Below, one piece after another: positions 12,815-53,877 of a stretch of 64,000 nucleotides of DNA. Every line of letters starts with the position of its first letter. Position 1 is the first letter of the stretch. The notes under the pieces were generated by a model. The model searched no databases. It worked only from the letters and a program-made list of their open reading frames with translations, and had not been told where the DNA came from. Position numbers and translations under genes: made by a program. Origin of the DNA: Psychrobacter celer (GTDB lineage: Bacteria; Pseudomonadota; Gammaproteobacteria; Pseudomonadales; Moraxellaceae); the NCBI RefSeq assembly GCF_016107555.1, contig NZ_JABASU010000005.1, positions 1 through 64,000 on the forward strand. Reading direction: 5' to 3'.

Positions 12815-12960
12815 CATCAGTCCGCAGGGACAGGACTCTTTTTTGCCGCTTCATCATTAAAAATAAGCGCTTAGAGTGACTAAACTTATTATTTTTAACC
12901 TCGAATCGTCTAAAAAATAGTCGCTGTCAGTGCCATGGTCGAATGTTCGACACGCCCTAA
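12815..12960. repeat. Intergenic repeat, right half of a MITE-like element
   Basis: This stretch is closely similar to 48813-48955: both run from CATCAG through GGACAGGACTCTTTTTTGCC to an end in ACACGCCCTAA. It contains a hairpin at 12857-12898 (TTAAAAATAA with TTATTTTTAA). The left half of the element is diverged or missing here. The rest of the 12609-12981 gap holds no gene that I can support. Confidence 0.8.
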
Positions 12961-23296: not shown

Positions 23297-23356
23297 AGGG
23301 TTTATTGAATATTCAGATGTGCTACCAGCACGATATCTGAATATTCAATAGACCCT
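23297..23356. repeat. 60-bp palindromic element
   Basis: Two 22-base arms (23297-23318 and 23335-23356) are complementary except for one position that can form G-U, and enclose 16 bases. The outer sequence AGGG..T.TTGAATATTCA matches the terminal repeats of the 266-bp element at 48690, so this looks like a minimal member of the same family, made of little more than its two ends. It ends 16 bases before the start codon of the next gene, so it could fold in that gene's leader. Confidence 0.8.
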
Positions 23357-27011: not shown

Positions 27012-27476
27012 CTACTGGCGACCTGAATGACCAAAACCGCCTGCGCCGCGCGCACTGGTATCACTAAACTCTGACACCACGGTAAATTCAGGGCGAGCGA
27101 CAGGGACGACAATATACTGCGCCATGCGCTCTGCTGGGTTTAATACAAAATCCGCAGCGCTACGATTCCAAATACTGACCATCAGCTCGCCTTGGTAGTC
27201 GGCATCGATCAAACCCACCAAATTCCCTAAAACAATACCGTGCTTATGGCCCAGCCCTGAGCGCGGCAGAATCATCCCAGCATAATTAGGGTCCTCGATA
27301 TACACAGCCAGACCTGTACCGACAAGATGTGTTTCCCCTGCTTTGATGGTCAAAGGCGCATCGATACAGGCGCGCAAATCAATACCAGCACTGCCATCGG
27401 TTGCACGTGTCGGCAAAGAAAATGCCTTGTCTTCAACGATTTTCGGGTTTAACACTTTTACTTGTACAGCTTGCAT
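27012..27476 (-). CDS. dut: dUTP diphosphatase
   Basis: A 154-aa trimeric dUTPase that hydrolyses dUTP to dUMP, keeping uracil out of DNA and feeding dTMP synthesis. The five family motifs are visible: [40 protein letters not shown] and the C-terminal GAGGFGHSG arm that closes over the substrate. The frame opens at 27575, but [10 protein letters not shown] at 27476 matches family N-termini. It precedes algC and argB on the same strand. Confidence 0.96.
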
Positions 27477-27594
27477 AACGCACTCACTCAACGATTGGAT
27501 AGGTTGTAAATTAAATTCAAAAAAAATGCCTGATTCAGGCGACGCCGATTGGCTTTGTAAAAACAAAAAAGTCAATGACTGCTTTGGTGCTCAC

Positions 27595-29038: not shown

Positions 29039-29055
29039 AGGGCGTGTCTTCAATT
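29039..29055. repeat. Solo end of the intergenic repeat family
   Basis: AGGGCGTGTCTTCAATT sits in the gap between rep and mgtE. It shares AGGGCGTGT with the 48690 element and, apart from one base, is the inverse of the end at 56961-56977. A TA precedes it as in other copies. Confidence 0.55.
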
Positions 29056-37670: not shown

Positions 37671-40600
37671 ATGGCAGTCATACATATTGATGGTACCACT
37701 GTCGAAGTAGATAGCAGCGATAACTTGCTGCAAGCCTGCTTATCACTCGGCATTGATGTGCCGTATTTTTGTTATCATCCAGCCCTTGGCTCGGTCGGCT
37801 CGTGCCGTCAGTGCGCAGTCAAGCAGTTCCAAAACAAAGACGATATGGAAGCAGGCCGCGGTCGTCTGGTGATGTCTTGCATGGTCGCTCCTGGCGATGA
37901 CATGTATATTTCAGTGACGGATGACGAAGCCAAGGCATTCCGCAAGTCGATGGTTGAGCTACTCATGACCAACCATCCGCATGACTGTCCAACCTGTGAA
38001 GAAGGCGGGCATTGTCACTTGCAAGACATGACTTATATGTCAGGTCATAGTCGTCGTCGCTATCGCTTTACCAAGCGCACGCATCATAACCAAGACCTTG
38101 GGCCATTTATCGCTCACGAGATGAACCGCTGTATCGCATGCTATCGCTGTGTGCGTTTTTATAAAGACTACGCAGGCGGCGAAGATTTGGGCGTTTATGG
38201 CTCAAACAACCGTGTGTATTTTGGCCGTGATAAAGACGGTCAGTTCGAAAGCGAGTTTTCAGGCAACTTAACCGAAGTGTGCCCAACTGGGGTATTCACT
38301 GACAAAACGCATTCTGATCGCTACAATCGTAAATGGGACATGCAGTATGCGCCCAGCATCTGTCATGGCTGCTCGGCGGGCTGTAATATCTCGCCAGGTG
38401 AGCGTTATGGCGAGCTGCGCCGTATCGAAAACCGTTATAACGGTGACGTAAACCGCTATTTCTTATGTGACCGTGGCCGCTTTGGTTATGGCTATGTCAA
38501 CCGCGCTGATCGTCCAACCCAAGCGCTTGAACGTATCAATGACAAACACGTCAAAATCAATATTGACTACGCGCTTGATGAAACCATCAAACGCATCAAA
38601 GACAAAAAAGTCATCGGTATTGGCTCACCGCGCGCCAGTCTCGAGACCAACTTTGCGCTAAAAAATCTGGTCGGATTTGATAACTTTTCAACCGGCCTCA
38701 ATCATCAGCAGCAAGCATTGGTCAATAAATGTATCGAAGTGCTCAGCACTGAAGGTATCTATAATCCTAGCATGGCTGATATCGAAGCACATGACGCTGT
38801 GCTGGTGTTGGGCGAAGACATCACCCAAACTTCATCACGTGTCGCACTGTCAGTACGTCAAGCCGCGAAAAACGAAGGCTTGAAAATGGCGGCGGCGCTG
38901 CAAACGCAGCCTTGGCTTGCCGAGCCTGTCAAGCGTATCGCGCAAGACGCGTTAAGCCCAGTATACGTCGTCGATGTGACCCAAACCAAGCTAGAAGACA
39001 TCAGCAAAGCCAGCGTGGTAGCGACTCCTGAAGATATTGTTAAACTTGGTTTTAAAGTTGCTGATGAGATTGCAGGTCTGGCAGATGATTTGACGCAGAT
39101 TGTAGCGCCGCAAGCGGATACTGCCGAGCGCGAGACCGATGCGATGCAGGCACTCGCGCAGCAAATCGCATATGATTTGATTCAAGCCGATCAGCCGCTG
39201 GTGGTTTCGGGTAGCAGCTTATCTTCTACCGCACTGATAGAAGCAGCGGCGCAGATTACCCAAGCGTTGACCCAAAAACGCGCGGCAATCAAAGCGACTG
39301 AGCAACAGCAGGTTGAGGCACATAATGCCAAAGTACAGGCAGCACAAGCGAAAGCGGCTAATGACCAGCCTGAAGAAGACCAAGATTTATCTGCTAAGCC
39401 GAACAAACCTGAAACAGGCGTGAATACAGAAGTGCAGGATGATGTCGAGCGCGAGCCTGCTGAAAACCTTGAGTTAAAAGAAGTAAATAACAGGTATCAG
39501 GCACAAGCAGGTATCTATCTAACGGTACCTGATGCCAATAGCATGGGCGTTTGTATGCTTGGCGGTCAGTCAGTTGAAGAGCTACTAGCCACTGACTTTG
39601 ATGTGGTGGTGGTTGCAGAAAACCAGCTGACCGATGCCATTGATGCCAATAAGTTGACGCAGTTACTCGCTGATAAGACCGTCATCGCCCTTGATCATCA
39701 GCTGCTTGATTGGCACAAAGACGTCGACATCGTCTTGCCAGCCGCCAGTTTTGCCGAAGCGGATGGTACGCTTATCTCTGCTGAGGGCCGTGCGCAGCGC
39801 TTCTTCCAAGTTTATGATAATGAATATTATCATCCAATGAGCAGTATCAAAGAAGGCTGGCGCTGGTTACATGCGGTGCATAGCAGTATCGAAGGCCGTG
39901 ATGTCGATTGGACACAGCTCGATGATGTCATCAATGCATTGATCGCCACCCATCCAAAGCTTGCTGGTATCAAGGGCGCCGCGCCCGATGCGGACTACCG
40001 TATCACGGGTCTTAAAATTGCGCGTCAGCCGCGGCGTTACTCTGGTCGTACTGCCATGCGTGCGCCGATCTCAGTGCATGAGCCAATGCAGCCAAAAGAC
40101 TTGGATACAGGATTGACTTTCTCTATGGAAGGCTACACGGGCAAACAAACACCAAGCTCGATGGTTCCTTTTGCTCATGCTGCTGGCTGGAACTCGCCGC
40201 AAGCATGGAACAAATACCAAGACAAAGTCGGTGGTCATCTAAAAAACGGTGACCCAGGCGTGCGTTTGTTCGATATGCTCGAGCGCCTACCGACACGTCA
40301 GTATGTCGCACCAGAAGCCCTGTCTGCGACCACGACTGACATGCAGCAGGGACAAGCCAAACTGGTGCCTATCTATAACATCTATGCCAGCTCAATGATG
40401 GCATCGCGCAGTCCTATCGTCGCCGAACAGCTGCCGGTGGCGGCATGGCGTATCGGTATGGATGATGCCAAAGACTGGAATATTGCCGCTGGTGATTACT
40501 TAGCAATCGAGATTGACAAACAGCAAATCACCCTGCCAGTACAGATTGTCGGTTATCTAGCAGAAGGTTGTATTGGTTATCCTGTCGGGCAGGTGAGCAT

Positions 40601-47011: not shown

Positions 47012-48490
47012 ATGAATGATATTACGATGAATGATTTGATGGGATTGCTACCTTACGCACCGATCATCGCCGTAGTGATTACGGTGTTGGTGGTGATGAT
47101 TGCCATCGCGGTAAAACGCTCACATGTGGTGACAGGTACTGTTACGGTGGTGGGCTTAAACGTTGGGCTATTTACCTTGCTGGCGCAGATGGCTGGTATC
47201 GTCAGTAGCGGCGCGGCTGCGCCTAGCGCTGAGCAGTTATTTATCATTGATAATTTTGCTCAGTTTAATATGGTGGTGATTTTTATCTGTGCATTGGCGT
47301 GCTGTACGCTGTCTTATGCTTATCTTGCTAACCTAAAAGACAATAAAGACGAGCTGTATCTGCTGATGTTGCTATCGACAATCGGCGCGCTGCTGATGGT
47401 CAGTGCTCAGCATTTGGCGGCGTTCTTTATGAGTCTTGAGATGCTATCGATACCGCTATATGGCTTATTGGCCTATACTTATATGCGTAATCGTTCGCTT
47501 GAGTCGGGGCTGAAGTATCTGGTGTTATCAGCGACCGCATCGGCCACACTACTGATGGGCATGGCCTTTATCTACGCTGAGGTGGGCGCGCTGGCGTTCA
47601 AACCGATCAGCTTGGTATTGGGTAATGTATTTGAGTCGCCACTCTTGATACTTGGGGCGGCGATGATGCTGTTCGGTATTGCCTTTAAACTCTCAGCAGC
47701 TCCTTTTCATATGTGGACCCCCGATGTCTATGAGGGTGCACCAGCTCCTATCGCTACGTTTTTGGCGTCTGTCTCAAAAGTGGCGATGATGGCTTTGGCC
47801 GTGCGTTTCTTAATCGATACTGCGTTATTGGCGCTGCCGTCTGTACAGATACTGCTGATGGTGATGGCGACCTTATCGATATTGGTAGGTAACTTACTAG
47901 CCGTACGTCAGACCAGTCTCAAGCGCTTATTGGGTTATTCATCCATTGCGCATATGGGTTATGTGCTGATCGTTATTGTTAGTATCGGTACCGCAGCCGA
48001 TAGCATCTCTAGCATGTATATGGCGGTCTATGCCTTTACCTCTATCGGTGCCTTTGGGGTAGTGACCTTGATGTCGAGTCCTTATCGCTTGGCAGGTGAG
48101 GCTGATGAGCTGACTCACTATCAAGGGCTGTTTTGGCGTCGTCCCGTGCTGACGGCGGTCATGACCATTATGATGCTGTCACTGGCTGGTATTCCGCTTA
48201 CCGCAGGCTTTATCACCAAGCTGTTTGCGATATTGGCGGCGGTACAAGGGACCAACTGGTTCTTGGCTGCGATGATTATCCTAGGCAGTGCCATCGGTCT
48301 GTTTTATTACTTGCGCGTGTTGCTTACTTTATTTAAGCGTCCTAAGCAATTCATCGAGTTTGATGTGGCAGGACAGTGGGGTATTCGCACGGGTGGTATC
48401 ATGGTCATCGCCGTCACAGCGATTATTTTGTTCTTTGGTATCTTGCCAAACAGTATGATTGAGTGGGCGAGCATGGCACGTATCTGGTAA
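47012..48490 (+). CDS. nuoN: NADH-quinone oxidoreductase subunit N
   Basis: A 492-aa antiporter-like subunit, the third proton pump, and the last gene of the operon. FFMSLEMLSIPLYGLLAY and FKLSAAPFHMWTPDVYEGAP carry the conserved Glu and Lys. GGAGG lies 11 bases before the ATG, inside the end of nuoM. A terminator follows at 48588. Confidence 0.98.
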   Translation: MNDITMNDLMGLLPYAPIIAVVITVLVVMIAIAVKRSHVVTGTVTVVGLNVGLFTLLAQMAGIVSSGAAAPSAEQLFIIDNFAQFNMVVIFICALACCTLSYAYLANLKDNKDELYLLMLLSTIGALLMVSAQHLAAFFMSLEMLSIPLYGLLAYTYMRNRSLESGLKYLVLSATASATLLMGMAFIYAEVGALAFKPISLVLGNVFESPLLILGAAMMLFGIAFKLSAAPFHMWTPDVYEGAPAPIATFLASVSKVAMMALAVRFLIDTALLALPSVQILLMVMATLSILVGNLLAVRQTSLKRLLGYSSIAHMGYVLIVIVSIGTAADSISSMYMAVYAFTSIGAFGVVTLMSSPYRLAGEADELTHYQGLFWRRPVLTAVMTIMMLSLAGIPLTAGFITKLFAILAAVQGTNWFLAAMIILGSAIGLFYYLRVLLTLFKRPKQFIEFDVAGQWGIRTGGIMVIAVTAIILFFGILPNSMIEWASMARIW

Positions 48491-48587
48491 TGTACTGATA
48501 GTAATATGCTGATAGATAGGTAGCAAATAAACCGCTACAGTGCGGCAATCTATCGTGCCGCACATCCGCTGTGATGGTAAACCACCC

Positions 48588-48626
48588 AAGATGCGCCAGC
48601 TTTATGATAAGCTTGGCGCATCTTTT
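48588..48626 (+). terminator. Terminator of the nuo operon
   Basis: A long stem (AAGATGCGCCAGCTT with AAGCTTGGCGCATCTT, with one bulged position) is followed by TTTT. It lies about 100 bases after nuoN. Confidence 0.82.
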
Positions 48627-48689
48627 GGTTTGACCCCTTTAAAAACAAATAAACACAACCATCAATAGAAGTATTAAAAGAAAACGACG

Positions 48690-48955
48690 AGGGCGTGTTG
48701 AATATTCACAAATAGGCACTGCTGATCGCTAAAATTGTTCCAGACAAGGCGCAAAGCGACGATAATGCAGATGCCTTAGCTAGATTTGCAACGCAGTATG
48801 GCGCAATTTTAGCATCAGCCGTAGGGACAGGACTCTTTTTTGCCGCTTCATTGGTAAAAATAGACGCTTAGAGCGACTAAGCTTACTATTTTTACCTTCG
48901 AATCGTCTAAAAAATAGTCTCTGTCAGTGCCATGGTTGAATGTTCAACACGCCCT
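48690..48955. mobile_element. MITE-like element, 266 bp
   Basis: The left end AGGGCGTGTTGAATATTCA (48690-48708) and right end TGAATGTTCAACACGCCCT (48937-48955) are inverted repeats matching at 18 of 19 positions. There is no open frame inside, so it cannot encode its own transposase. It holds a strong internal hairpin at 48853-48896. The right half recurs at 12815-12960 and the far right end at 53835-53877. The right side is followed by TAA as in other copies; a clear target duplication is not seen. Confidence 0.78.
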
Positions 48956-48981
48956 AATAAAAACGAGAGTGATTAACGATT

Positions 48982-49797
48982 ATGAGTGACAATATTCAGA
49001 CAGTAACGGTGCTCAGTAAAACCACGTGGACACCCAATTTATTTAGCTTTACGGTCAGCCGTCCTGACAGTTTTAAATTTACTGCAGGGCAGTTTGTGCG
49101 TTTGGGGGTCAACCCCAGTCGGCTGAAGTATTATCAGCAGCAGGACGAGGAATTAGCAGCATTGGACGAAGACATATTTCGTGCCTACTCAATTGTCTCC
49201 TCACCATTTGATGAGGTGTTAGAGTTTTTCTCTATTGTCATTCCTGATGGCGCTTTTACCTCGCAGTTGCAGCACTTAGAAGTGGGTGATGAGCTGCTGC
49301 TCAATACCATGCCATTTGGCTTTTTGACGTTGGCTCGCTACCAAAAACCTCTACCCAAAGACTTATGGTTATTGGCGACAGGTACAGGCTTGGCACCTTT
49401 CTTGTCGATGCTCCAAGACCTAAAGACATGGAACGACTACGAGCATATTGTACTGGCCTACAGTGCGCGCTCGGTGGAAGAGCTGGCTTATATTGAGCTG
49501 ATTGAACGCTTGCAAGCAGACTTTGGCTCGTTGGTGGACAACCCTGCCAAGCTGATTTTTATTCCTATTGTCACCCGCGAGCCCGTCGATGGCGCATTGA
49601 CGGAGCGCTTGCCGAAGCTGCTATTGGACGGTACGCTACAAGAGCGTGCAGGTATTGCGCTGGATGTCGACAGCACCCATGTGATGCTCTGCGGCAACCC
49701 TGAGATGGTAGAGGATACCAAAGAAGCCCTAAAGACATTGGGGCTGGTGATGAACCGTCGCGGCGAGGGCAATATCGCGGTAGAAAATTATTGGTAA
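48982..49797 (+). CDS. fpr: Ferredoxin--NADP+ reductase
   Basis: A 271-aa FAD flavoprotein that exchanges electrons between NADPH and ferredoxin or flavodoxin in the cytoplasm. FRAYSIVSSPFDE is the FAD-binding RxYS motif, LLATGTGLAPFLSML the NADP pyrophosphate site, and VMLCGNPEMVEDTKEAL the conserved CGxPxM segment. The C-terminal NYW end is close to the family's aromatic terminus. A short insertion near residues 48-60 (YYQQQDEELAALDED) sits before the FAD motif. It is a single gene between the MITE-like element and a terminator. Confidence 0.93.
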   Translation: MSDNIQTVTVLSKTTWTPNLFSFTVSRPDSFKFTAGQFVRLGVNPSRLKYYQQQDEELAALDEDIFRAYSIVSSPFDEVLEFFSIVIPDGAFTSQLQHLEVGDELLLNTMPFGFLTLARYQKPLPKDLWLLATGTGLAPFLSMLQDLKTWNDYEHIVLAYSARSVEELAYIELIERLQADFGSLVDNPAKLIFIPIVTREPVDGALTERLPKLLLDGTLQERAGIALDVDSTHVMLCGNPEMVEDTKEALKTLGLVMNRRGEGNIAVENYW

Positions 49798-53716: not shown

Positions 53717-53877
53717 GTCGATTCTAAATAAAAAAGATAGATTGTATGTCAACGTGGAACTGGTATAAATTTTTCTTGCGTGCTGTGCCTACGCCGACAG
53801 AGGCTGCGAAAATTTCACTGCGCATTGTCTGAAAAATAGCCGCCGCCAGTGCCACATTTGAATGTTCAACACGCCCT
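53717..53877. repeat. Composite intergenic repeat between ybeZ and ybeY
   Basis: The first about 100 bases match the module at 31234-31341, and the last about 45 (from GAAAAATAGCC to TGAATGTTCAACACGCCCT at 53859-53877) match the right end of the 48690 element. It therefore looks like two repeat types joined together, or a longer element of which other loci keep only part. Confidence 0.7.

Follow-up and report, generated by a model that had tools for sequence, protein, structure and literature searches.

Within the window, the whole 64,000-nucleotide stretch of DNA analysed here, a 266-bp non-coding element (positions 48690-48955) lies as a small transposon between two genes. Its 5' neighbour is nuoN (47012-48490; TIGR01770 above cut-off), and its 3' neighbour is a ferredoxin-NADP reductase-like gene (48982-49797), which scores above the cut-off for PF00175 and under it for NF008178, and whose ATG starts 26 bp past the last base of the element. 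The first-pass annotation had described 19-bp inverted ends matching at 18 positions and an absence of coding capacity, and both points are borne out. Positions 48690-48708 and 48937-48955 pair at 18 of 19 positions. No other two 19-bp arms in the window match at 18 or more positions over a span of 200-330, and 20 mononucleotide shuffles of the window gave none; no ORF of at least 60 aa covers 48690-48955.

The left terminal inverted repeat, GGGCGTGTTGAATATTCAC (48691-48709, + strand), pairs with the right terminal inverted repeat (48936-48954, - strand), the last 18 bp of which are identical to the right end of an insertion sequence (IS) described below. The inner part of the terminal stem, GGCACT (48715-48720, + strand), pairs with 48926-48931. 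Between them lie the left (48721-48819) and right (48826-48925) hairpin arms of a Y, both on the + strand, which were delimited by the predicted fold and by pairing across copies.

Related pieces had been reported at five other intergenic sites in the window; three such sites hold up here. The right half of a second copy, its left half lost, is found at 12815-12958 (+ strand; 90% over query positions 124-266), and the right end of a third, partial copy at 53813-53877 (+ strand; 80% identity), each with TA at its right end, while a 60-bp TA-flanked hairpin at 23297-23356 has the related ends GGGTYTATTGAATATTCA and is connected by these ends only. Two other matches are weak and unconvincing, one inside an ORF (27424-27484) and one at 38302-38330. 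The TA borders reported for several copies are likewise present in part: each partial copy has TA at the end it retains and the window copy has it on the right, but the left border of the window copy reads GA.

Copies and target sites

The element's own genome (G000; 73 contigs, 3.02 Mb) contains 27 matches to it, eight of them full-length at 75-100% identity, and the 18-bp end occurs with up to two mismatches at 41 places, as against none for the reversed control. The search for further paired copies, suggested as a check, thus returned these eight and 86 distinct paired elements overall. This 86-copy set was drawn from L061-L082, L217 onward and the eight own copies, with duplicates removed; as both ends were required to lie within two mismatches, copies with strongly changed ends are absent from it. 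The length between TAs is 264-265, 276-277 or 290 bp in 74 of the 86. In an order-wide search of 57 genomes, 29 match, namely the own genome and 28 of 35 congeners (some with partial copies only), and none of 21 genomes from other families of the order does so. A 31-bp left-end pattern, searched in one genome per species, gave 96 stretches; among 80 of these, 79 are from Psychrobacter and one is from an uncultured Acinetobacter. The element has no match among 50,697 phage records, and phage cargo was accordingly rejected. No published description of this MITE family was found in the titles, abstract openings and selected passages that the literature search covered, subscription journals and ISfinder lying outside it. 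Psychrobacter gains a widespread intergenic MITE family plus a probable parent IS.

TA flanks both ends in 82 of the 86 distinct paired copies. The base before these TA-flanked copies is T or C in 66 of 82, and the base after is A or G in 69 of 82. The MITE would insert at TA, in the favoured context Y-TA-R, with the TA becoming duplicated.

The window copy reads GAC-GA-(264 bp)-TA-ATAAA, with GA at its left border and TA at its right, and the corresponding locus in a relative (L159, genome G114) reads GAC-TA-ATAAA. There, the sequence ...GAAAACGAC TA ATAAAAACGAGAG... has matching flanks and no element. As this empty site contains a single TA, the TA was duplicated at the window site, giving the right target duplication (TA, 48955-48956) and a left target duplication (48689-48690) that has since decayed to GA. 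An empty site in a relative, a further check put forward in the first-pass annotation, is seen at L159, and the element is absent from the window locus in 29 of 29 relatives' loci (BLAST, E 1e-3). These 29 comprise every relative's locus returned: among 102 relatives, 29 matched the downstream gene. The exact empty site is clear in L159, but in several of the loci the intergenic remainder is too divergent to place it. Site L003 was examined for a further empty site, but G123, the one close relative compared, carries a copy there (L360), so that the MITE is present at this site in both genomes. Spanning 279 bp, the copy in G123 has 93.5% identity to the window copy, and the whole 2.4-kb aligned stretch is 96% alike.

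A candidate parent insertion sequence

An IS with the same ends as the element, the presence of which had also been proposed as a check, was found. When its 29-bp end is searched for with three mismatches allowed, 41 of 105 genus genomes, the own one among them, contain it; where both ends are present, they enclose some 860 bp (859 bp from TA to TA in L105, the one measured). Among 13 copies examined, ten are 864-865 bp as cut and have a whole open frame of 262 codons, or 250 aa from its Met, and the other three are shortened or broken. The frame encodes a transposase of the IS5 family (NF033580, 255 bits vs a cut-off of 110; PF13340 and PF01609). The right 18 bp of the MITE are identical to the right end of the IS, and its left 16 bp differ from both IS ends by at most one mismatch, so that MITE and IS share 16-18 bp of their ends as well as the TA borders. 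Beyond the ends, no significant match between the two is found inside, and significant identity is confined to the ends.

A direct search of the own assembly for the transposase returned only relatives at 41-54% identity. Contig C7 breaks off 51 bp into an IS left end that departs from L105 at a few bases. The terminal 52 bp of the IS stand at either extremity of contig C34, where the GGGCGTGTTGAACATTCA end continues into sequence unlike that of the MITE. These contig ends suggest that the IS is present at two or more sites in the own genome, its body probably lost in assembly. One of the two IS ends that close off C34 (L090, 9604 bp) lies within an IS630-like transposase gene; the contig carries what we take to be pqq-like genes, their names being assigned from the translations.

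The IS and the MITE do not always occur together. With the pattern used, the IS end is present in 11 of 28 MITE-bearing congeners and in 2 of 7 MITE-free ones, so that co-occurrence is weak. In three genomes rich in MITE copies (G030, G011 and G009), a search for the transposase at E 1e-10 gave no match; despite this, 12 copies from G030 are 91-98% alike.

The assignment of the 266-bp element to the MITEs is supported by its short length, lack of coding sequence, terminal inverted repeats, TA duplication, empty site and an IS with the same ends. The first-pass reading of a MITE family gains the same support, from the further paired copies, the empty site and the matching IS. Judged by its ends and target, the element is a MITE of the IS5 family, like the IS427 group, and the likely mobiliser is the IS5-family IS, rather than a transposase of the Tc1/mariner or IS630 type. 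An IS5-family (IS427-like) transposase, made by the separate 859-bp IS, would act on the two ends of the MITE and move it in trans. We hold with high confidence to this reading as a whole: a MITE duplicated at TA, favouring Y-TA-R, with its ends recognised by the transposase of a separate IS and with a Y-shaped interior that is kept paired. MITE and IS together would account for intergenic hairpins and some assembly breaks in Psychrobacter genomes.

TA duplication is typical of the IS630/Tc1-mariner group, and a transposase of this type could on that ground be taken to move the element, as the first-pass annotation had done; the own genome also has three matches to DDE_3 transposases. We consider this very improbable, as the IS with matching ends and TA borders encodes an IS5-family protein and not one of this group. 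With one mismatch allowed, no GGGCGTGT end was found within the 3.0 kb surrounding the DDE_3 gene of C23 or the 2.5 kb surrounding that of C73, and because such ends are absent there, an IS630/Tc1-mariner mobiliser with GGGCGTGTTGAA ends in the own genome was rejected. The third DDE_3 gene, on C34, is interrupted by an IS5-type end. TA direct repeats are, moreover, described for ISPssp5, a member of the IS427 group of the IS5 family (passages in PMC6514802).

ISPssp5, an 837-bp IS from the Psychrobacter plasmid pP32BP2, is a published element that resembles the candidate parent in family, genus and borders: both have a TA direct repeat and ends that begin GGGYGTGT (passages in PMC6514802). The two differ in that the ISPssp5 ends continue CATCAATTA, as against TGAACATT here, and in that its transposase is encoded by two overlapping genes, unlike the one open frame of the 859-bp IS; the word MITE is absent from the main text of that paper (PMC6514802). 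ISAba31-type IS of Acinetobacter plasmids also resemble the parent, with an IS5-family transposase at 61% identity, TA borders and a length of 861 bp including both TAs, but their ends, TAGGGTCTGTTGACATTT, are unlike those of the parent IS. The copy examined (H26, the same as L418) is labelled "IS5 family" only, and others of equal identity are labelled ISAba31.

As for other small repeats, REP and REPIN sequences resemble this MITE in being dispersed intergenic palindromes; they are served by RAYT and are not known to have TA-duplicated transposon ends. ISAba12 belongs to the IS5 family. MITEAba12 of Acinetobacter, likewise of the Moraxellaceae, resembles our MITE in having only its ends in common with its proposed parent, ISAba12; it is 113 bp long, and identity with it was rejected, as its ends, GGCTTTGTTGCACAAA, and its 9-bp duplications differ from those here (passages in PMC6382973, which also mention two further Acinetobacter MITEs, of 439 and 502 bp). 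Correia elements of Neisseria are also intergenic MITEs, with TA as their most common duplication, and are likened here by description, not by sequence; unlike here, promoters and RNase III processing are reported for them (passages in PMC10969869 and PMC9330008). The kind of element is already known, and what is unusual is its branched interior, the halves of which change together.

The Y-shaped interior

The predicted fold of the element is a Y, in which a terminal stem carries two long hairpin arms. Its energy lies below that of shuffled sequences by 10.2 SD as RNA on the + strand, 9.1 SD as RNA on the - strand and 10.6 SD as DNA on the + strand. For a comparison of copies, clustering at 96% of the 85 (out of 86) longer than 200 bp gave 26 groups, and an alignment (A1) was made of 24 representatives, two outlying lengths (325 and 231 bp) being left out. 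The structure predicted for A1 has 94 pairs, with 96.5% of cells paired. Double changes are found at 31 of the 94 pairs, in 109 cells, as against 14 pairs and 25 cells in shuffles that are uncorrected for relatedness, and none of 500 shuffles reaches the observed values. Slid structures, used as a control, have 7-10 pairs with double changes, a comparison in which the tested structure is favoured, as it was predicted on A1 itself. The interior would thus form a Y of two long hairpins, the pairing of which appears to have been kept during divergence.

What keeps the arms paired can be read in several ways. One is that the element is a domesticated functional RNA or regulatory element (a terminator or an RNase site), with mobility a matter of its past. 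The stability of the fold as RNA on both strands (z of -10.2 and -9.1), the double changes and the position of the copies, none of 85 overlapping an ORF of >600 nt by >100 bp, fit this reading, as does a terminator-like hairpin with a T-run at 48866-48882, found on both strands. G-U cells also outnumber A-C cells by 99 to 27, but only when three G-U-consensus pairs are counted; outside these, the numbers are 41 and 27 cells (27 vs 21 pairs), and at opposed unpaired positions A-C exceeds G-U (42 vs 18). Of the 85 copies, 77 are flanked by genes on both sides, and the orientations of these genes are evenly spread (++ 23, -- 25, divergent 20, convergent 9). Taken together, the base counts and the even orientation give no clear sign of one functional RNA strand, and we regard the RNA or regulatory reading as improbable. 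A promoter-like site is absent from 48450-49050. No Rfam match at E <= 1 falls inside the element, the two matches obtained (E 0.28 and 0.61) lying outside it, and a known RNA family was rejected; so was a terminator role, since convergent pairs, 9 of 77, show no excess, though the hairpin with its T-run matches.

We infer instead that the kept pairing is a property of the DNA element, which may either be selected as DNA or arise by copying from arm to arm. In quasi-palindrome correction, one arm is copied into the other during replication, and the double changes in the arms could come about in this way, not by selection, an explanation that is compatible with the MITE reading and to which we give a little under even weight. 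In its favour, blocks of neighbouring bases are changed on both arms in one group (L077, L287 and L009), and a strand preference is not clear. Opposed mismatches that are nearly fixed (G-A at columns 71/127 and T-C at columns 88/111, each in 23 of 24) count against it, because such correction should erase them. That the arms are selected as DNA and not as RNA, with a cruciform-capable interior or a folded single strand (e.g., on the lagging strand or in an excised form) raising the element's own copying, seems to us unlikely. If it were true, the armless 64-bp and 26-bp forms described below would show what the absence of the arms costs or keeps. The MITE family suits the question of whether paired arms are selected or come from templated copying.

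Short forms, end variants and a 1.5-kb unit

A form of about 64 bp resembles the full element minus the interior that lies between the AAATAG stretches at element positions 21 and 223. A search with this form matches 66 of 105 genus genomes, many rows being the right 44 bp of longer elements only. The whole 64-bp form or a near variant is found at 15 distinct sites in the loci examined, 13 of which are TA-flanked on both sides and four of which have one inner flank in common. A still shorter form of 26 bp consists of both ends fused into a palindrome and, when two mismatches are allowed, is present in 42 of 105 genomes. Among 32 loci (e.g., L316:1048, L317:1038 and L187-L216), this palindrome is TA-flanked on both sides at 11 distinct sites, and two further sites, without TA on both sides, recur in 10 and 9 loci. 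The 64-bp and 26-bp forms may be mobile or may have been made by deletion in place, and the 26-bp palindromes are possibly the smallest relics of the MITE family, or re-used hairpins.

The two ends of a copy tend to change together, though not always. Among 12 copies fetched from G030, nine have GGGTCTG at both ends, one has GGGTCTG with GGGTCTA, and two keep GGGCGT. The 13 copies from G013 have a TTTGAT-type end on both sides in six cases, on one side in three and on neither in four, with L413, one of two further variants, counted as one-sided. Copies, empty site, shortened forms and end variants make up a natural system for the joint change of ends in a transposase and its non-autonomous followers.

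A 1.5-kb unit with a cation diffusion facilitator (CDF) gene has the 64-bp MITE form at one edge (L356:3643-5137 on own contig C11, L125:2223-3724, L353:3558-5057, L357 and relatives). The unit has the same borders, TA on each side and different outer flanks in the own genome (96.4%) and in an Acinetobacter variabilis plasmid (99.9%). In the draft genome G095, a contig end cuts its right border, and in Psychrobacter plasmids its right edge abuts the IS. The other edge is without a MITE end and by eye is like an end of the IS630-like IS on C23.

Two further kinds of repeat are seen in the window. Beside the partial copy, at 53757-53812, a ACTGGTATAAATTTTTCTTG...ACAGAGGCTGCG stretch resembles one at the edge of the CDF unit and is perhaps another repeat family. 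At 29040 and 56960, TA-preceded GGGCGTRTCTTCAATT-type ends are close to the published ISPssp5 ends and perhaps represent another MITE or IS remnant family.
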